Origin: a virus
Reading direction: 5' to 3' (one strand)
Virus record (IMG/VR): IMGVR_UViG_3300032799_000120
Location: 1-24,084 of that record
Length of the DNA stretch: 24,084 nt
How positions within the stretch are numbered: the first letter of the stretch is position 1; each line of letters starts with the position of its first letter. Positions 1,031-10,077 of this stretch are shown piece by piece. The notes beneath the pieces are model-generated. The model was given only the letters and a program-made list of their open reading frames with translations. It had not been told where the DNA came from and searched no databases. A program made the translations under genes and the position numbers.

Positions 1031-1684
1031 TTAAGTGTCTGCCGTTATCCGGACTATGTTGGTTCCATCTGCATAAATGATAGCTCTTTTCGCATTTGCA
1101 ACGGTAATTCCGGTTCCGCTTGCACCGATAAATTGCAGTGATTGTGCGCCGGTTGTGTTGTTGAAAACTGTGTATTGTTTCACCATCAATGGAATGACAA
1201 CATTGCGGGTGGCTGTCAAGCTCACGGTGCTGGTAAATTCCAGAATATCATTCAGCGCTTCACCATGGAGCAGAGTAATGTTGGCATCACTGGTAATGCT
1301 ACGAACGAGTTTTCCGGTCGCAAGGTCTAACCATGGTCTATGATCTTCGTAGCTGGTAACTGTGCTTGCGCCGGTCACGACTTTATAAAGCGCAATGCTG
1401 CCTGGTGTAAAAGCGCTGGTGTTTTTGCTGACGACACCGGCCCGCGTCGATTCGACATAATTGGTTGTGCTGGCTGTCAGCGCCACAGTACCGTTGGCTA
1501 TGGCCGTTGATACGCCATCGACCAAAATCCTGTCACCGAAATAATCCCAACTTAAGCCGCTGGAACTTTGTCGTTTACCTCCGAATGAATTTTTGCTGAG
1601 CGCGTTATTTATTTCATTAACGGTGGCTTCTTTTCCGGCCTGGGCGGTGGTGAGCTGTGTTAGTAACGAGGCGCTATCGGACAT
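1031..1684 (-). CDS. Tail fibre / tail-tip associated structural protein
   Basis: This 217-aa protein is the last gene of the late block. The N-terminus (LLTQLTTAQAGKEATVNEINNAL) resembles the short oligomerising start found in many phage fibre and baseplate proteins. The middle (NGTVALTASTTNYVES, IALYKVVTGASTVTSYEDHRPW) and the C-terminal beta-rich segment (FNNTTGAQSLQF, AKRAIIYADGTNIVRIT) match a widespread prophage fibre architecture. It starts 5 bp after the stop of the tail tip gene, which fits a fibre attached to the tip. No enzymatic motif is visible. It is likely receptor-facing, but which part binds the host is unknown. The gene converges on attP and the plus-strand int/HNH genes. 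Confidence 0.7.
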   Translation of the reverse strand: MSDSASLLTQLTTAQAGKEATVNEINNALSKNSFGGKRQSSSGLSWDYFGDRILVDGVSTAIANGTVALTASTTNYVESTRAGVVSKNTSAFTPGSIALYKVVTGASTVTSYEDHRPWLDLATGKLVRSITSDANITLLHGEALNDILEFTSTVSLTATRNVVIPLMVKQYTVFNNTTGAQSLQFIGASGTGITVANAKRAIIYADGTNIVRITADT

Positions 1685-1689
1685 GGGTA

Positions 1690-4600
1690 TTATCTCGTAA
1701 TGGTTGCAATCAATGGGTAACCGCGCGAAACGGTAGCGGATAACTGATAAATTTTTACATAAAGCGTGGCCTGATTACTGCCAAAATCCGTGACTTGATT
1801 GGCACTGGTATAAGCAACCGTTTGTGTTGATGCTGTTAATGTGCGCTTAAGCGTGGTATAGGTGCCACTGCTAAAAATATCGACCTCATAGGACTCGGTA
1901 GTTTCCCCAAGTGCAGCATCGACAAGATCGCGCCACCCGGCAAACCGTGATCGTCTTGTCCATATTAATGTCCAGTCATTCGTGGTCGGATGTCGATTAC
2001 CGGTAAGCGCGCATGGCGATAATGGTTCAAGATTGACCGCATTATAAGTGTAACTGCGATTGGATTCTGAAGCCAGTGCTTTCCCGGCGGTAATACCTCG
2101 ATAAAGTTTCGCTACACCGATGGCTGCTGATTGCGAGGCAATAAAAGCAAGCCGCGCAGTATCCAGCAAGATGATTTTGTCAGCCGCCACATGCAGGCCT
2201 GTTGTCCATTCTGTGCCATTTTGCCCGCGTAGAAAATCATTCAGAATATAACTGCCATCGCCTTGTAATACGCATTTTTGCGCGGCTATGATCTCCCAGC
2301 GCGTATCCAGGCCATAAGCAAACCAGTTTGATCCGGCAAATAGTTGCGCCTCGGTAATACTGGATAGCGTACCCTGATACAGTATTACTGTCAGCGTGCT
2401 TGATTTATCCAGCACCGTCCCGCCGTGAGCGGTTAAGCTGGTAGTAGCATAGCCAATTGTCGAGCCAGGCGAAGCAAAATCTTCAATGCTGGTGAACGTT
2501 TGCCCGCCATCCTCGCTTCTGAACAGTGCGCCGCCTGGCCAGCCTGCAAGATAGCCGGTCATGGCTGCCGGGAATCCTGGCGTATTATCTGCATCCCGCA
2601 GCATGGGTATATCCAGCAACTCATAGGTGGTGGGGCCTGGCAATATCATGCCTGCACCAACAGATTGTCCTTCTTCACCCAGCGCTACCGGACTATAAAG
2701 CGCCGCTTTGCTATGTTTGGCACGGCATTCGATACGGCCATCCGGTAATGTGTTAAGGGTAGTCAAGCGTAATTCATAGGTGGCATTTTCGCCATTGAGC
2801 GTGATTACATCGCCTGGTTCCAGATTGGCGTAGGTATACGGCAATATAAAGCTGATGTCGTAGCGCTCCATCCAGTACAGGTACAGCAACACTTCGGCTT
2901 TTTGCGCGGCTTCCTGAGCATTGAATACCACGGGGATTTCGATGCTGATTTCATTAACCGCATCGGTATTGATGCGTGCTGCATATTGCTCGTTGGTGTC
3001 GTACTCGCGCGTATTATCCAGGTATTTGATCGTAACTTTTTTAGCCAGGATACTATCCATTTCACGCGCATTGGTAATTTGTATACCTGGTTTTGCGCCC
3101 GCTGAACGCGCATCCAAAGCGCTGGATGGAATAGTGACAACAGAGGCGGAACCACGCTTTTTAAATTTTATCGCATAACCATGCTGCATTACATCGAAGG
3201 GCCATGAGGACCGCAAGGGTTCAATACCGCCTCGTATAGCACCCATTGCAGATACGCGATAACCATTTACGACGTCTGTGAGTTCAGAAACATCTAAATC
3301 GCCTGTTGTCAGTAAATTACTATTAAGGCATTCAGCTTGCACTATGGTTGATAACAGTGTGACATTGCTGGAAAAGGAAAACCAGACTCTAATAGATAAT
3401 GTCGCGCTGGTACCAACAGCAACAAACCAGGCTCCATTCCAGGCCAGCGCTTTACAATTGAGATTAGGTACAGTATGTGAAGTCCAGGTGATTCCATCAG
3501 GCGATGTACAAGCGTCTACGGTTGACGATAAGACCAATAAATAAGTCCCACTCCACCCGATACAGGTATGCGAAAATGCTGGCATGGTCCGTGCTGTCCA
3601 GGTAATCCCGTCAGGCGATGTGGCATAATCTGAACCACTGCCTTTAATGGCAACAAATAATGTACCATTATGAACAATTCCGGTCCAATTGGTTGCGCCT
3701 GGCATAGTATATTCAGTCCAGGTTATCCCACTATCAGACGAAGTGGCGCAGGTATTACCTTGTCGTAGAGCGACTAATATGCCATTCCCAAATGCCAATA
3801 AATTCCATGCTATTGACCCATTAATGTAGGGTGGCATGGCATTTGTGTACGTGGTCCATCCAATACCGTTTGTAGATGTAGCTGCATAATTAAATGCGCC
3901 GCCGTTTTGCTGTCCTATAGTGAAATAAAATGTATCACACCAGCAGATTGCATACCATCTGGCTACTCCTACGCCAAGACTATTTAACGACCAAATTGTG
4001 CCATGTTCGGAAAATGCGCTATCAGCTGATAACTCAGCTATCGCTACAAATCCAGAATTCGTTCCTGATGTGGCTATCCCTGTCCACAATTTTCCGGCCG
4101 CATTCTGGAATTTATTCCAGGTTTTACCGTCAGCTGATACAGCGACTGTATCATTGTTCCCACCATCTATGGCGCAATATTCAATTCCGTTATAAGCAAC
4201 ACCAATCCATGTTGAAATCGTTGTTGGCAATGTAGACGTGTCAGTATTAAAGTTAATTTGCCCTGTTTTGACTATTTCAACCTTAACCTGCGCTCCAAGC
4301 AAACTGTTATTATAACTTTCCAGCGGAACGTCATTAAATACGATATAGGCAAGACCTCTATAGGCAGGTGTATTGGCCACGCCCTTATCAGCCTGAATGC
4401 TTGGATCGGGTAACTGGGTATCAGTTCCTAAATACAGTTTAAAATATTGGCTTGCAGCCTCACTGGCAATTATATCTGACATTGCGGTAGCGCCCGCATC
4501 ATAAACAAGATCGGAACCTATCCACATTTTTTTTATGCCGTCAATCGGCCCTTCGCATAGACCTACAGCAAACGTGGCAAAATAGGTAAAAGTGGTGTTT

Positions 4601-4938
4601 TTTTGCTTGGGCTTGCCAAAACCGCCCTTGCCGCCGGCGCTGGCATCGGTTTCAACCTCGGTGATCCTGTCGTTTTGTAGCCAGAATATATTGCCGTATT
4701 GGGCAATGATTCCGTAATTCCTCGGTATGATCGCGCCATAGGTTGAGGTTTGGACGGAAAGATCATTAAGCCGTGGACCTTTCAACTCAGGCGTTTTTGG
4801 CGGGTCCAGGGCGCCGCCGATAGCACCACCGATTGCCATGCCCAATGAAGCGCCTAACGCAACATTACCGCCGGCAAAAAAACCGATTATACCGCCGACG
4901 ACACCGCCGGCAATTGTGCCTATACTGCTCCCGCTCAT
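1690..4938 (-). CDS. Tail tip / host-specificity protein (J-like) with inserted Asp-box repeat domain
   Basis: This 1082-aa protein forms the tail tip. Residues about 7-42 are a glycine-rich hydrophobic segment (GGVVGGIIGFFAGG), typical of this family. Residues about 45-225 and 525-1082 follow the usual tail tip order: PRNYGIIAQYGNIFWL, FATFAVGLCEGPIDGIKKMWIG, YRGLAYIVFNDVPLE, then LLTTGDLDVSELTDVVNGYRVS and YWMERYDISFILPY. Between them lies a block of about 300 residues with repeated S-x-D-G-x-T-W motifs (near 267, 352, 399, 440 and 477), like BNR/Asp-box beta-propeller blades. This block is unusual for the family and its DNA is visibly more AT-rich. It probably adds a surface domain for host or polysaccharide binding. 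The ATG overlaps the stop of the NlpC/P60 gene by 4 bp. Confidence 0.85.
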   Translation of the reverse strand: MSGSSIGTIAGGVVGGIIGFFAGGNVALGASLGMAIGGAIGGALDPPKTPELKGPRLNDLSVQTSTYGAIIPRNYGIIAQYGNIFWLQNDRITEVETDASAGGKGGFGKPKQKNTTFTYFATFAVGLCEGPIDGIKKMWIGSDLVYDAGATAMSDIIASEAASQYFKLYLGTDTQLPDPSIQADKGVANTPAYRGLAYIVFNDVPLESYNNSLLGAQVKVEIVKTGQINFNTDTSTLPTTISTWIGVAYNGIEYCAIDGGNNDTVAVSADGKTWNKFQNAAGKLWTGIATSGTNSGFVAIAELSADSAFSEHGTIWSLNSLGVGVARWYAICWCDTFYFTIGQQNGGAFNYAATSTNGIGWTTYTNAMPPYINGSIAWNLLAFGNGILVALRQGNTCATSSDSGITWTEYTMPGATNWTGIVHNGTLFVAIKGSGSDYATSPDGITWTARTMPAFSHTCIGWSGTYLLVLSSTVDACTSPDGITWTSHTVPNLNCKALAWNGAWFVAVGTSATLSIRVWFSFSSNVTLLSTIVQAECLNSNLLTTGDLDVSELTDVVNGYRVSAMGAIRGGIEPLRSSWPFDVMQHGYAIKFKKRGSASVVTIPSSALDARSAGAKPGIQITNAREMDSILAKKVTIKYLDNTREYDTNEQYAARINTDAVNEISIEIPVVFNAQEAAQKAEVLLYLYWMERYDISFILPYTYANLEPGDVITLNGENATYELRLTTLNTLPDGRIECRAKHSKAALYSPVALGEEGQSVGAGMILPGPTTYELLDIPMLRDADNTPGFPAAMTGYLAGWPGGALFRSEDGGQTFTSIEDFASPGSTIGYATTSLTAHGGTVLDKSSTLTVILYQGTLSSITEAQLFAGSNWFAYGLDTRWEIIAAQKCVLQGDGSYILNDFLRGQNGTEWTTGLHVAADKIILLDTARLAFIASQSAAIGVAKLYRGITAGKALASESNRSYTYNAVNLEPLSPCALTGNRHPTTNDWTLIWTRRSRFAGWRDLVDAALGETTESYEVDIFSSGTYTTLKRTLTASTQTVAYTSANQVTDFGSNQATLYVKIYQLSATVSRGYPLIATITR

Positions 4939-5369
4939 GGTTTATCCTCGCTCACTACAGGCGCGTCCTTAAACCGGTAAATGCGCATAATTCGTGATTT
5001 CCATTTTGTATCCAGTCGATGTTCGACCACGCGGCCTATGCCCTCATAGCTGTGTATCAGGTTTTCGCCAGTGTAGATACCTACGTGTTGCGGATCGCCA
5101 GTAAAGCGCATCATTAAAATATCCCCCGCCTGCATTTCATGTACGCGATATAACCATTCCTGGGTATCAGCGGCCAGTTCAAGCAGGCCATTGGATGGCG
5201 TGCGTGAATAGCCAGGTGTTTCCACTGGTTCAAAACCTAGTCGTTTGGCTACGTGTGCAATTACGCCGGCACAATCAAGACCAAGCCCTAATAACCTGCC
5301 CTGGTGCAGATAGGGCGTACCCAGGCATTCGCGGGCATAGGCAATAATATCGTCTGTCTTTATCTGCAT
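4935..5369 (-). CDS. NlpC/P60-family cell-wall peptidase, tail tip assembly protein
   Basis: This 144-aa protein has the NlpC/P60 papain-like fold signature. The catalytic cysteine is in LGLDCAGVIAHVAKRLG (Cys33), the catalytic histidine in GDPQHVGIYTG (His95), and a third polar residue is probably His106 in NLIHSYEG. Related proteins in siphoviruses and gene transfer agents sit between the DUF2163 protein and the tail tip protein, as here, and cut peptidoglycan cross-bridges during DNA entry. The length is normal for the family. A palindromic repeat array separates it from the upstream DUF2163 gene; its own stop overlaps the next gene as ATGA. Confidence 0.93.
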   Translation of the reverse strand: MQIKTDDIIAYARECLGTPYLHQGRLLGLGLDCAGVIAHVAKRLGFEPVETPGYSRTPSNGLLELAADTQEWLYRVHEMQAGDILMMRFTGDPQHVGIYTGENLIHSYEGIGRVVEHRLDTKWKSRIMRIYRFKDAPVVSEDKP

Positions 5370-5403: not shown

Positions 5404-5481
5404 GTAGAGACGCGATTAATCGCGTCTTCTTTAGACGCGATTAATCGCGTCTTCTTTAGACGCGATTAATCGCGTCTCTAC
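5404..5481. repeat. Three-unit array of a 20-bp perfect palindrome
   Basis: AGACGCGATTAATCGCGTCT occurs at 5408-5427, 5433-5452 and 5458-5477, an exact 25-bp period with TCTTT spacers. The outer edges GTAGAGACGCG and CGCGTCTCTAC make the whole block an inverted repeat. It is preceded by TTTTTTTTGACAGGATTAACAGG, and a closely similar lead sequence precedes the copy near 7935. The array fills the gap between the DUF2163 and NlpC genes, and its last base is the first base (plus strand) of the DUF2163 stop codon. It would fold into strong hairpins in the late transcript. It looks like a host-type dispersed palindrome. Confidence 0.9.
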
Positions 5482-6299
5482 TAACGGATGTAGGTTGATT
5501 GGGTAGGGATAAAACTGAAACCGCCGAAATTGACTACGTTATTCCATTTATCACGGCAATCCGCAAGCCGCTTTCTGCAACCGGGTATCATGCTGTAAGC
5601 ATCGCCAATGACTACCGGGTAATAAAACGCTTCATGGGTCAAAATTGACCCACCGGCCGTATGCGCTTTTATTTCCTGCGGTTTAAGACCGGCATTGGCG
5701 CCGGTCGTAAAAGCAATGGTGCCCTCTGCAAAATAATCCACGGCTTCGGCCCTGGCTGAATCGGCAAACTGTGAGGCGCTGGTTACGCTGGTAAGGGTTC
5801 CGGTTACGGTAATCGGGCCCAGAGCCACTTTGCAGCCTGCATATTCCTGACCGCCAAACTTTTTGGGGCATGAGGGCGTATAGGTTTTGCCAACTGACTG
5901 ATTGAGCGCATCAACCATCATCATTAATTCGGCGCTATAACGCTCGTCTTTGAAGGTAATTTTACCCATGAAAGCGACACCCAGCGGTTCTTCATCAACG
6001 ACGGGAGTGCGCCAGGTAGTAGCAAATAAATAAACACGGGCGTTGTCGAATACGCCTGAAACAATCTGATCATAACCGATACCGGCAATATCAGCGATAC
6101 CGGACAGATCAATTACACCAGGTGCCATATTGCCCTCAGCGGCAAGGCCGGTGAATTCATAGCCGGAATCTGTTTTATAGGTGTTGGCGCCGATGACTAT
6201 ATCGCGCGGGTGATCGGTCAGGTAAATTATTGATCCCCAAAGAGGAACAATTTTTAGACAATGGATTTTGTATTTAGGGTCAGCAACGGCGGGCTTCAT
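5481..6299 (-). CDS. DUF2163 / phage BR0599 family tail tip protein
   Basis: This 272-aa protein matches the DUF2163 family of phage and gene-transfer-agent tail tips. The N-terminal region (IYLTDHPRDIVIGANTYKT) and the C-terminal signature (GCRKRLADCRDKWNNVVNFGGF) are both present. Conserved cysteines (CPKKFGGQEYAGC, PGCRKRLADC) fit the metal- or disulfide-bound tip hub known for this family. Its usual neighbours, the DUF2460 and NlpC/P60 proteins, flank it, except that a methyltransferase gene sits between it and DUF2460. The 50-bp gap upstream (6300-6349) lacks a clear Shine-Dalgarno and carries a repetitive CGTGCTTTTCGTGTTTTTC stretch. Start ATG MKPAV is the only good option. Confidence 0.9.
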   Translation of the reverse strand: MKPAVADPKYKIHCLKIVPLWGSIIYLTDHPRDIVIGANTYKTDSGYEFTGLAAEGNMAPGVIDLSGIADIAGIGYDQIVSGVFDNARVYLFATTWRTPVVDEEPLGVAFMGKITFKDERYSAELMMMVDALNQSVGKTYTPSCPKKFGGQEYAGCKVALGPITVTGTLTSVTSASQFADSARAEAVDYFAEGTIAFTTGANAGLKPQEIKAHTAGGSILTHEAFYYPVVIGDAYSMIPGCRKRLADCRDKWNNVVNFGGFSFIPTQSTYIR

Positions 6300-6349: not shown

Positions 6350-7024
6350 CTAGGCAACTTCATCGAATAGGGTTTTTTGTGCTGTGGCTTGCGAAAAGCG
6401 TTTTTGTGCAGCTTTAAAATAATCTTCATCAATCTCACAGCCGACAAAATCAACATTAAAATAATGCGCGGCTATGGCGCTTGAACCGCTGCCAAGATGT
6501 GTATCTAAAACGCGTTGTCCGGATTTGGCATAATAGTGTAATAGCCAATTGTAAAGCTGTATTGGTTTTTGGGTAGGATGTATGCGTTTTTCAATAGATT
6601 GTTTCGTGGGGCCTTGTTGATAACCATTCCAGCAATACGTTATCATTCTGACTGCCGTTTTGAAACTTGTCCATGCCAGCTCACAATCGGCAAAATCTCC
6701 AGATGTTTCTTTGTTCCAAACTATCCAGCAGGATGAATCAATAGGGTTTCTACTTATAAAATGATTAGCTCCCCAAATAATTTGATTTTTAGATACCCGT
6801 CGTAATTCGTTAAAATATGTTTTATCAGCTGGTTTCCTATCCCAGAACTTATTTTCGAATTGGGTTGCTTCCAATATCTTTCCATTCGCTTTTGAACATC
6901 TTGAATTATTGCTTTTACCATCCTGTCCTATTCCATAAGGCGGGTCAACAATCGCTAAATCAAACGCATTGTCTTGCAATGTTGACATGTACTCCATACA
7001 ATCAATATTCAATAATTCAATCAT
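6350..7024 (-). CDS. DNA adenine- or cytosine-N4 methyltransferase, beta class
   Basis: This 224-aa protein has motif IV DPPYG at residues 27-31, HPTQKP at 149-154, then the SAM-binding motif I DTHLGSGSSA at 174-183 followed by VGCEID. That order (IV first, I last) defines beta-class amino methyltransferases, which modify N6-adenine or N4-cytosine. The region between motifs is the probable target-recognition part; specificity cannot be read. No restriction gene is adjacent, so it is an orphan, probably protecting phage DNA from host restriction or altering gene expression. Its ATG overlaps the DUF2460 stop as ATGA, so it is translated with the late tail genes. Confidence 0.92.
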   Translation of the reverse strand: MIELLNIDCMEYMSTLQDNAFDLAIVDPPYGIGQDGKSNNSRCSKANGKILEATQFENKFWDRKPADKTYFNELRRVSKNQIIWGANHFISRNPIDSSCWIVWNKETSGDFADCELAWTSFKTAVRMITYCWNGYQQGPTKQSIEKRIHPTQKPIQLYNWLLHYYAKSGQRVLDTHLGSGSSAIAAHYFNVDFVGCEIDEDYFKAAQKRFSQATAQKTLFDEVA

Positions 7025-7887
7025 GGATTAAGCAATTCAATGATTTCAATTTGCGAGGATTCGCGGATACCGGGAGCCAATGAAGTCACATCGATACGGC
7101 TGTTAAACCGGGCCGGAATATCGTATTCACAACCTCCATAAACCGTTTCACCTGTTTGCGGCGTAGTGTTGACGTTACCGCCGCTGGTATAAGCGGTAAA
7201 TGCAGTGCTGTTGATGGCAACGGTGATCGTGGTCGCAGCGGTTACCGTGATAAACGCACGCAGACCGTTGATTTGCGTCATGCCTGATACACCAGAAATA
7301 TACACGGAATCATCAATGTTATACCCGTGCGCGGCGCCAACGGTAATGACTGCGCTGGCAGCCTGTGTGATGCCGGTAATGGCCTTGGTGAGGTTGGTAA
7401 ATGTAACCCGGCCGGTAGTAGTCGATACGCTGAAACGGGTAACCTGTTCGGCCGCGCCGATGGCTATTTTGGTAGTCCCGGAAACCGGCTTGAAGATCGT
7501 GCGGACAGGCTTGCCGATAGAGATTGGCGTGCCGGTGCCGCCATAGGCTACCTGCAATTGATAAATGCCTGCTGAAACCAGCGCTAATGTTTGATCTACA
7601 GCCGTGGGCGTGCCAGTGCGGTTGTTGGTGGTGTAGTCATCCAGGGCTTTGACCCTAAACCCGGCAAACATACCGTAGGAACGATGATAAAGCGAAAGTA
7701 TCTGATCCCATAGATCGGCAGTAAACTGGGTGTAAAACACTGTGTAAATGCGGACCGGATACGGATGCACCAGGCGGCGGTATTCGCTGCCGTTGGCGGT
7801 TTGGGTGATCTCAACGTTGTATTCATCAGAATAACTTGCGCCGGCACGTACGCCAATTGGTAATCTCTCTTCCAGGAATTCGGCCAT
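7021..7887 (-). CDS. DUF2460 tail protein with inserted E1-FCCH-like beta domain
   Basis: This 288-aa protein carries the DUF2460 signature: FLEERLPIGVRAGASYS at residues 4-20, the middle segment SYGMFAGFRVKALDDY (70-85), and the ending GCEYDIPARFNSRIDVTSL (252-270). The family is usually about 210 aa and forms the distal tail ring above the tip. The extra length comes from residues about 168-240 (GYNIDDSVYISGVSGMTQINGLRAF, FTAYTSGGNV), which resemble the small beta domain databases call ubiquitin-activating enzyme E1 FCCH. Phages often carry it with no link to ubiquitin. A similar domain is in the major tail protein of this phage. Confidence 0.88.
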   Translation of the reverse strand: MAEFLEERLPIGVRAGASYSDEYNVEITQTANGSEYRRLVHPYPVRIYTVFYTQFTADLWDQILSLYHRSYGMFAGFRVKALDDYTTNNRTGTPTAVDQTLALVSAGIYQLQVAYGGTGTPISIGKPVRTIFKPVSGTTKIAIGAAEQVTRFSVSTTTGRVTFTNLTKAITGITQAASAVITVGAAHGYNIDDSVYISGVSGMTQINGLRAFITVTAATTITVAINSTAFTAYTSGGNVNTTPQTGETVYGGCEYDIPARFNSRIDVTSLAPGIRESSQIEIIELLNP

Positions 7888-7922
7888 AAATTTGCTACCA
7901 GATTATATTAAGAGATTTTTTT

Positions 7923-7958
7923 TTGACAGGATAGAGACGCGATTAATCGCGTCTCTAC
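7923..7958. repeat. Single copy of the 20-bp palindrome between tail genes
   Basis: The same AGACGCGATTAATCGCGTCT core as at 5404-5481 is present at 7935-7954, flanked by TAG and CTA. It is preceded by a T run and GACAGGAT, nearly the same lead as the 5.4-kb array. It fills the 96-bp gap between the tape measure and DUF2460 genes. There is no U tract directly after the stem on the minus strand, so it is not a textbook terminator; it may stabilise or process the transcript. Confidence 0.85.
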
Positions 7959-7983
7959 GCTGTTTATTTTTTTAATGTCATAC

Positions 7984-10077
7984 CTAACCATATCGACCGG
8001 CGCCGTTAATTAAGCCTAACGCCTCGCGTGCTCCCTGGCCGGCTGCTCTGCGGACGTCTGGCGCTGAGCCGCCATTGACGTTGACGATAATCGTATGGCC
8101 TTGTCCGCCACGCGTTTTTATGCCAAGTTTGCCATCCGAGCCTCGGGCTAATGGCATGATGGCTTCGGGGCCTGCTTCACCCATTAAGCCCGTGCGCCCG
8201 CCGGCCATCGGGAAGGTGTGCGGGCTTGTGACTACGCCACCACCGGCAAAGGCAACTATATTGCCGTGGTTGAAGGCGTGGCCCTTGGCGGCAAAGGCGC
8301 TGAACAGCGATGCGGCGCCACTGACGAGAGAATCAAGGCCACCGCCCCCGCCGGATTTTTTGGACATTAACGAATCGAATATGGCGGCGGAGGCTGCTTC
8401 TGCGGCCATTTTGCGCAAGGCGGTGGTGAAATTATCCAACAAACCGCCCATATCGGTATTAAAAGGATCAAACAGGAAATTGGCAAAACTATCCTGCATA
8501 TTGCGCGCGGCCTGAATTGAAAACTGGGTAAGCGCATCAGTACCCTCCTTAGCCGGGGTTATAAATTCATCATTCCAGGCCTTGCCCAGTTTGTCGAATT
8601 CGGCTTTTGCCTGGTCGGAGTTAATGGTGCCGAGTTTTAATTGATCCTGGGTTTTAGCCAACGCATCACCAAAGCCGCTTTGAATGTCCCCGGAGCGAAT
8701 CAGCTCATCATTGCTTTGACGCAAATCATAATAATCATTGGCGGATTCCACCAGTGCCGCCCATTGTTTTTCCTGGGTTTCCAGCGCGTCTTTTTCCTTG
8801 GCCAGTCCCAACAGGTTTTCCTGTTGCAATGGCGCCAGGCCTTTTAATGAGCCGCTGATGATCTCATATTCAACCTGGGCGACTTCGGTGTTTTTATCGC
8901 GTAAATCGATTTCTTTTTGCAAGCTGGCAAGCATCGATTCATAGGAATTTTGTAGCTTCTCTGCTGCTTTTTGTTCATCCGTTAATGCGGCTTTTCTGGC
9001 ATGGTGCCCTTTCCCTTTCCCGCTGCCACTGTTGATAAAATCTGATACGTCTTTTGTTGATGGTCCCGAGGACAATTTTATCGATGCAGTAGGATTAAGG
9101 CTATCCTTGAGTTGCCCGGCAAGTTTTTCCTGTTGTTTGTATAGACTATCAAGCCGGTTTTTTTCCAGCGTGATGTCATTGCCTGCCAGGTCATCAATCA
9201 GCCCACCGATAAGCCCGTTGTTTTTCAGGGCATTGACTTTTTTCTCGGTGACATCAATTTGCTCGTTGACATGCTGGAGCTGACCGGCAACGCCTGAGAA
9301 TGTTTGTTTGCCAACAAGCGCATTTCCAATACCTGACATCACATTATTAAAGGTAACGCCCGCCTCGGTAGCATTGCTGATTGATTCATACAGATTGTTG
9401 AATGCAGAAGCGAACGAACCACCTGCTACTACAGACACATTACTAAGTCGCACACGCATTAATTCAGACGTATCGTTAAAAATATCGGCATTCCTGGCCA
9501 TTTCAGCGGTAACACCGGACAGCTTTGCGCCTTCCGCAACTACTTTTCTTAGTTCTGCGCCCCCCTGTGATAATAGTGGCGCCAAATCCTGCCAGGATTT
9601 ACCGAGCGCTTTGTTAGCCAAAGCGGCCCGCTGTTGAGGATCTTCAATTGAAGAAAAGACATCAGCCAGTTGCAGGAAAGCATCAGCCGGGTCCTTGGCA
9701 TCGATACCCAGCTTTTTAAAGGCTTCACCGTTTTTGGCGATATTAACGCTGAGTTTATTGGCGGCCGACGTGAACGCCTCCATATCGGTGCCGCTTTGTT
9801 TGGTGGCCAGCTGGAAGCCTGCCAGCTTTTCGACCGCTATGCCGGTTTTAAGTGACATATCGTTGAGGGCATCGGCGGCGTCTATGCCGGATTTTACAAA
9901 AGCGGTGACAGCGGCAACGGACAGACCTGCGCCAAGAGCTGAAAAGGCTTTGTTGATGCGGCTGGAGGTGGTTTCAGCGCGTTGTTGAAAGCGGTTTAGA
10001 TGATCACTAATGCGATCAACCTGCCCGGCAATATTGCCCAAATGGGCATTAAAATCAACCGTGATGCCTAACGCCAT
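7984..10077 (-). CDS. Tail tape measure protein
   Basis: This 697-aa protein is long and largely helical. Residues about 1-45 form a predicted coiled region; a hydrophobic stretch (ALGAGLSVAAVTAFV) follows at about 46-62. The segment ALNDMSLKTGIAVEKLAGFQLA is typical of phage tape measures. The C-terminus has the lambda-family signature AGGGVVTSPHTFPMAGGRTGLMGEAGPEAIMPL, then a glycine-rich tail. The protein sets tail length; at about 1.5 angstrom per residue the tail would be near 100 nm (inferred). It starts 2 bp after the gp10-like gene and lies downstream of the tail chaperones, as usual. Confidence 0.95.
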   Translation of the reverse strand: MALGITVDFNAHLGNIAGQVDRISDHLNRFQQRAETTSSRINKAFSALGAGLSVAAVTAFVKSGIDAADALNDMSLKTGIAVEKLAGFQLATKQSGTDMEAFTSAANKLSVNIAKNGEAFKKLGIDAKDPADAFLQLADVFSSIEDPQQRAALANKALGKSWQDLAPLLSQGGAELRKVVAEGAKLSGVTAEMARNADIFNDTSELMRVRLSNVSVVAGGSFASAFNNLYESISNATEAGVTFNNVMSGIGNALVGKQTFSGVAGQLQHVNEQIDVTEKKVNALKNNGLIGGLIDDLAGNDITLEKNRLDSLYKQQEKLAGQLKDSLNPTASIKLSSGPSTKDVSDFINSGSGKGKGHHARKAALTDEQKAAEKLQNSYESMLASLQKEIDLRDKNTEVAQVEYEIISGSLKGLAPLQQENLLGLAKEKDALETQEKQWAALVESANDYYDLRQSNDELIRSGDIQSGFGDALAKTQDQLKLGTINSDQAKAEFDKLGKAWNDEFITPAKEGTDALTQFSIQAARNMQDSFANFLFDPFNTDMGGLLDNFTTALRKMAAEAASAAIFDSLMSKKSGGGGGLDSLVSGAASLFSAFAAKGHAFNHGNIVAFAGGGVVTSPHTFPMAGGRTGLMGEAGPEAIMPLARGSDGKLGIKTRGGQGHTIIVNVNGGSAPDVRRAAGQGAREALGLINGAGRYG

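Follow-up and report, generated by a model that had tools for sequence, protein, structure and literature searches.

The tail-tip protein of this phage probably carries an exchangeable adhesin, namely an Asp-box beta-propeller at the peripheral position of a megatron, which is swapped for unrelated domains and likely binds a receptor. Judged from alignments of the locus, the peripheral position in this phage lineage appears to be an exchange socket, while the scaffold and a separate tail fibre are kept. The window, i.e. the whole stretch of 24,084 nucleotides analysed (positions 1 to 24,084 of IMG/VR record IMGVR_UViG_3300032799_000120), was compared with its closest relative, the locus L002. 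The N-terminal and C-terminal scaffolds of the two were 75 and 82% identical, and the slot between them was 21% identical and was occupied in L002 by an LVIVD-repeat propeller (E 9e-22).

The megatron gene and its predicted propeller

The window encodes head proteins (large terminase, portal, Clp-type protease, and capsid), and its minus strand carries a tail-tip module resembling that of RcGTA. The module comprises a DUF2460 protein (7021..7887; PF09343), which lies upstream of the hub gene and is probably the distal tail protein (the RcGTA g12 counterpart by gene order), a baseplate hub (5481..6299; PF09931, PF09356; g13 counterpart), an NlpC/P60 tail peptidase (4935..5369; PF00877; g14 counterpart), a protein of 1082 aa (1690..4938), and, directly downstream of the latter, a putative tail fibre of 217 aa (1031..1684; PHROG tail fiber). 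The hub and DUF2460 genes are separated by an N6/N4 DNA methylase gene (6350-7024), which lies within the module and has a lower GC content; L002 has no gene at this position. An HNH endonuclease-like gene is present on the plus strand near the record end (388-897).

The phmmer matches of the 1082-aa protein were the megatrons of RcGTA (6tba, 7e-43) and R4C (8gtc, 3e-42). They covered only the N- and C-terminal parts (residues 11-228 and 529-1082), and the block between them matched neither. The flanks of the block aligned to residues 10-205 and 766-1285 of the RcGTA protein. The N-terminal scaffold (aa 46-225; 4264..4803, minus strand) was the counterpart of the RcGTA adhesin-like domain in the alignment to 6tba and 8gtc. 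The C-terminal scaffold (aa 531-1082; 1693..3348, minus strand) contained the central domain Phage-tail_3 (PF13550, aa 570-726) and the fibre-binding domain Rcc01698_C (PF23666, aa 826-921). Together with the gene order hub - NlpC/P60 peptidase - megatron, these matches identify the 1082-aa protein as a baseplate protein of the megatron type and a relative of RcGTA Rcc01698.

An earlier note on the window had proposed an Asp-box propeller-like domain inside this protein. The block indeed lies in the tail-tip ORF (1690-4938, minus strand), between a segment ending with VEIVKTGQ at aa 227 and LLTTGDLDVSELTD starting at aa 542, and the coordinates proposed for it were right, because the structural matches described below span aa 226-525 (3364..4263, minus strand). 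Five motifs of the type S-x-D/N-G-x-T/S-W were found in the block, all encoded on the minus strand: SADGKTW (aa 268-274; 4117..4137), STNGIGW (aa 355-361; 3856..3876), SSDSGITW (aa 400-407; 3718..3741), and SPDGITW twice (aa 441-447; 3598..3618, and aa 479-485; 3484..3504). A degenerate sixth box, SEHGTIW (aa 310-316; 3991..4011), was read in the translation and aligned to intact boxes of relatives. The spacing of about 38-46 residues agrees with the repeats about 40 residues apart that had been noticed earlier. By the loose pattern, the 304 aa gave five matches; in 2000 shuffles the mean was 0.16, and no shuffle had more than 3. By the strict pattern there were four matches, against a shuffle mean of 0.04. 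A single Asp-box-like motif, SEDGGQTF (aa 808-815; 2494..2517, minus strand), is located in the conserved scaffold and also occurs in L002, L003, and L077. It was assigned to the scaffold and not to the propeller, because the slot of L077 is almost empty.

AlphaFold2, supplied with 16 aligned occupants, predicted an all-beta domain of about 28 strands with seven closed four-stranded blades (pLDDT 86.7, pTM 0.86), in line with the fold suggested in the earlier note. The top Foldseek ranks of the model were Ycf48, followed by virginiamycin B lyase. VIA-align gave Z 30.7 over 278 residues for virginiamycin B lyase and Z 26.2 for a designed seven-bladed protein, and the matches to seven-bladed chains covered model residues 9-308, which correspond to aa 226-525. 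The Pfam matches of the block to BNR (E 1.9) and DUF6242 (E 0.019) were both under the curated cut-off, so the block was classified by fold and motif. Neither Pfam nor PHROGs searches named it, and no Pfam match above cut-off pointed to the TIM-barrel peripheral domain of GTAs. According to the model, the block would be a seven-bladed Asp-box beta-propeller in the peripheral-domain position of the megatron.

Ycf48 has Asp-box repeats and seven blades. The Ycf48-type propellers (PDB 5ojr, 2xbg) are the top Foldseek match, but they are photosystem II assembly factors with ~16% identity to the block and no functional link. Asp-box propellers also occur in other phage proteins (A0A6J5SXG5, DUF6242), at no more than 35% identity and TM 0.82-0.88. 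A0A6J5SXG5 has only 299 residues and is therefore not a megatron, and the other phage Asp-box matches lie in longer proteins whose records name no megatron. The block-only scan of viral contigs gave no relative, and tblastn of the block in phages gave weak Asp-box matches only (23-30% identity); thus, no donor of the window propeller was found in these searches.

The peripheral position and its occupants

The RcGTA peripheral domain comprises residues 230-744, between the adhesin-like and central domains (PMC7296036), and the slot is therefore the place of a standard domain that was replaced, not a short linker with an insert. The earlier note had described an insertion into a linker that is normally short in relatives. 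Neither statement was borne out, as the site corresponds to the peripheral domain of megatrons and is hardly ever empty; the slot was ~10 residues long in L077, 156 in L042, and 266-584 in the other relatives read. The RcGTA megatron (Rcc01698/g15; PDB 6tba, 6teh; PMC7296036) shares with the window the adhesin-like, central and fibre-binding scaffold and the order hub - peptidase - megatron, but its peripheral domain is a TIM barrel of ~515 residues, whereas the window has a predicted 300-residue Asp-box propeller without sequence match to it. The scaffold is also common to the roseophage R4C megatron (PDB 8gtc; PMC10276861), in which the peripheral region is mannanase-like, includes an additional CBM11-like domain, and was assigned to carbohydrate binding by its authors. 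R4C adds a domain to the mannanase-like peripheral domain, whereas the lineage of the window replaces the whole domain. A 2026 preprint lists the "peripheral TIM-barrel domain" among the RcGTA baseplate domains of unknown exact function (PMC13420450).

The search with the C-terminal scaffold retrieved 68 viral loci and 5 genome loci, most of the relatives being metagenomic contigs, and a search of 299 Propionivibrio-family genomes added few relatives. From the loci of the scaffold search, 60 distinct non-empty occupants were extracted, including that of the window. They formed 29 blastp groups, or 28 after one profile merge, without detectable sequence similarity between groups; this number depends on the blastp thresholds and would be lowered by deep profiles joining orphans. 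The only merge obtained by profile comparison of the orphans was that of L054 with a six-member group. The occupants comprised 17 Asp-box, 4 LVIVD, and 3 glycine-rich domains, the six-member group of unassigned kind, several small families, and many orphans. Pfam assigned propeller families to several of them, and many had no assignable fold. The orphan family L010/L026/L067 was also folded, and its Foldseek list contained mostly propellers; with pLDDT 58 and TM ~0.3, this model was set aside as evidence for a propeller.

The occupant borders were extrapolated from local alignments to the domain limits of the window, and may be several residues off, with larger errors possible in some distant relatives, among them L049 and L058. 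The megatron gene is frameshifted in L003/L032 and L039, which were excluded from the tree; L076, whose N-terminal part is broken, entered mainly via its C-terminal part. The glycine-rich slot domain of L053, L066, and L069 belongs to a more distant branch, and three members match Pfam Gly_rich_2. L074 and L076 are two contigs of one Propionivibrio genome and have related megatron scaffolds with unrelated occupants; a third, broken megatron copy is located on another contig of this genome.

The occupants are mostly 266-384 aa long, and the frames are open in nearly all relatives. In L077 (4936-7662, Accumulibacter genome) the rest of the frame is open. It is a natural near-empty megatron and a convenient reference for how the protein works when the domain is missing, and at least one relative thus manages without a slot domain. 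This fits a module that is merely structural and specific to the lineage, has no role in host recognition, and varies through relaxed constraint on a peripheral loop. The retention of domain-sized occupants in open frames argues against such a module, and relaxed point divergence does not yield wholesale replacement with sharp borders; we consider this explanation unlikely.

Replacement between fixed borders

In the near pairs compared (window/L002, L012/L013, L012/L026, L013/L026, L038/L040, and L006/L010), the identity fell from 75-100% to ~20% and recovered to 65-100%; the transitions took no more than ~20 residues and were in the same two places in all pairs. By alignment, the first border directly follows Q-V-K-V-E-(I/V)-V, and the second directly precedes S-x-I-V-x-x-E-C-L-x-S. 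L012, L013, and L026 carry three unrelated occupants, with identities of 79-89% in the N-terminal part, 20-22% in the slot, and 89-90% in the C-terminal part. In the slots tested, the DNA borders were resolved to ~15-30 bases, and blastn between the slots left no match. Within the tail tip, only the slot deviates, because the hub (89%), the fibre (83%), the DUF2460 protein (82%), and the peptidase were overall 82-89% identical between the window and L002. The fibres of L012 and L013, and those of L013 and L026, were 87-89% identical. Among Asp-box carriers, L015 and L023 were 85% identical in the C-terminal scaffold and 25% in the slot, while L023 and L075 have both in common. These identities indicate that the domain has been replaced, or has diverged fast, between Asp-box carriers too.

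In the scaffold tree, the window grouped with the LVIVD carrier L002 (100/100), then with L006 and L010 (100/99). The Asp-box carriers were clustered, with 12 carriers and the empty slot in one clade of 13 rows. A single old insertion, common to close relatives and diverged in place without exchange, would produce such clustering. However, the supported branches require Asp-box status to have changed six times or more, and bootstrap trees gave the same number over their 5-95% range; the nearest scaffold, that of L002, holds LVIVD; and the slots of 80-90% identical scaffolds retain no residual similarity. These results contradict the old insertion, which we regard as very improbable. The occupant families L010/L026 and L019/L074 were each found on distant scaffolds.

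Diversity-generating retroelements often target phage adhesins, and variation in the slot might accordingly stem from such an element or from another form of local hypermutation instead of exchange. The slot holds different families, near-identical scaffolds have no slot sequence in common, and no reverse transcriptase was present among the window proteins scanned, which represent part of its ORFs. For the replacements seen, hypermutation is contradicted and seems hardly conceivable as an explanation.

The base composition was also compared. The GC content of the block was 44.2%, compared with 46.6% on the N-terminal and 49.0% on the C-terminal side, and its GC3 was 37% compared with 47 and 46%, respectively. 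The drop noticed earlier is therefore real, but it is modest and general for the slot: of 59 relatives, 51 had an occupant with lower GC than its flanks, and in 52 the GC at codon position 3 was lower. Since this is so common, base composition is weak evidence of recent acquisition and was rejected as proof of it. The lower GC fits recurrent import or weaker codon selection, and does not date the acquisition in the window. The acquisition suggested in the earlier note is thus supported by the scaffold phylogeny and the sharp replacement borders, and not by base composition.

L002 carries two GIY-YIG endonuclease genes flanking the tail-tip genes (1327-2130 and 7497-8333), one of them with NUMOD3 repeats; one lies directly between the megatron and fibre genes, and the window lacks both at those places. 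As a speculation, homing-type endonucleases near the slot could drive the exchange of adjoining sequence.

Function of the socket domain

The binding function, a glycan ligand, and a role in host range are inferred for the block, receptor or glycan binding by the predicted propeller being most likely. A propeller closes on itself and its ends are generally near each other, so that it could plug into a loop by two adjacent ends. By analogy with RcGTA and R4C, three propeller copies would project from the threefold baseplate, where they most likely attach to a receptor on the host surface ahead of baseplate opening; a capsular or LPS glycan is the probable ligand.

Sialidases and xyloglucanases are among the Asp-box propellers, and LVIVD repeats are not known to have hydrolase activity. 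The occupants may instead be polysaccharide depolymerases or glycosidases degrading capsule or exopolysaccharide en route to the membrane, and exchange between fixed borders could equally serve enzymes cutting different capsules. The equivalent domain of RcGTA and R4C has a TIM-barrel/mannanase-like fold, and one viral structural neighbour of the block is named xyloglucan hydrolase. On the other side, the best solved neighbours, Ycf48 and virginiamycin B lyase, are non-glycosidase seven-bladed propellers, and no solved glycosidase matched the sequence of the block significantly, the match to an exo-alpha-sialidase (E 0.98) being at chance level. In the alignment of 16 Asp-box occupants, the invariant in-domain residues were W144, S183, and W230 (aligned-segment numbering). 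The lack of an acidic residue among them argues against a single catalytic site common to these occupants. We consider enzyme activity of the occupants improbable as the main explanation, as the missing invariant acid and the non-glycosidase neighbours weigh against it. Free swapping of one domain, with scaffold and fibre conserved, is what one would expect if that domain bound a receptor and the host drove its selection.

In the evolved Dit of lactococcal phages, a module was gained; no standing domain was replaced. The evolved Dit, a distal tail protein with carbohydrate-binding modules (PMC10688798), is functionally similar to the socket in carrying a binding module on a conserved tail-tip protein, and it helps adsorption to exopolysaccharide-bearing cells, but it is a different protein (Dit) and belongs to phages of Gram-positive hosts. 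The propeller itself is of an already known kind. Exchange at the megatron peripheral site appears to be new to the literature, as no description was found in the openly licensed papers searched.

That this domain is swapped wholesale, whereas the fibre, the hub, and the distal tail protein are almost constant, suggests that the slot serves host recognition. L012/L013/L026, window/L002, and L038/L040 are natural near-isogenic sets for testing this. The exchange also bears on the function of the RcGTA peripheral domain. More tentatively, the megatron socket domain, and not the fibre, may be the main exchangeable host-recognition element; the socket may favour closed beta-propellers of many unrelated families, and the RcGTA TIM barrel may be the version of the adhesin position that belongs to the GTA.
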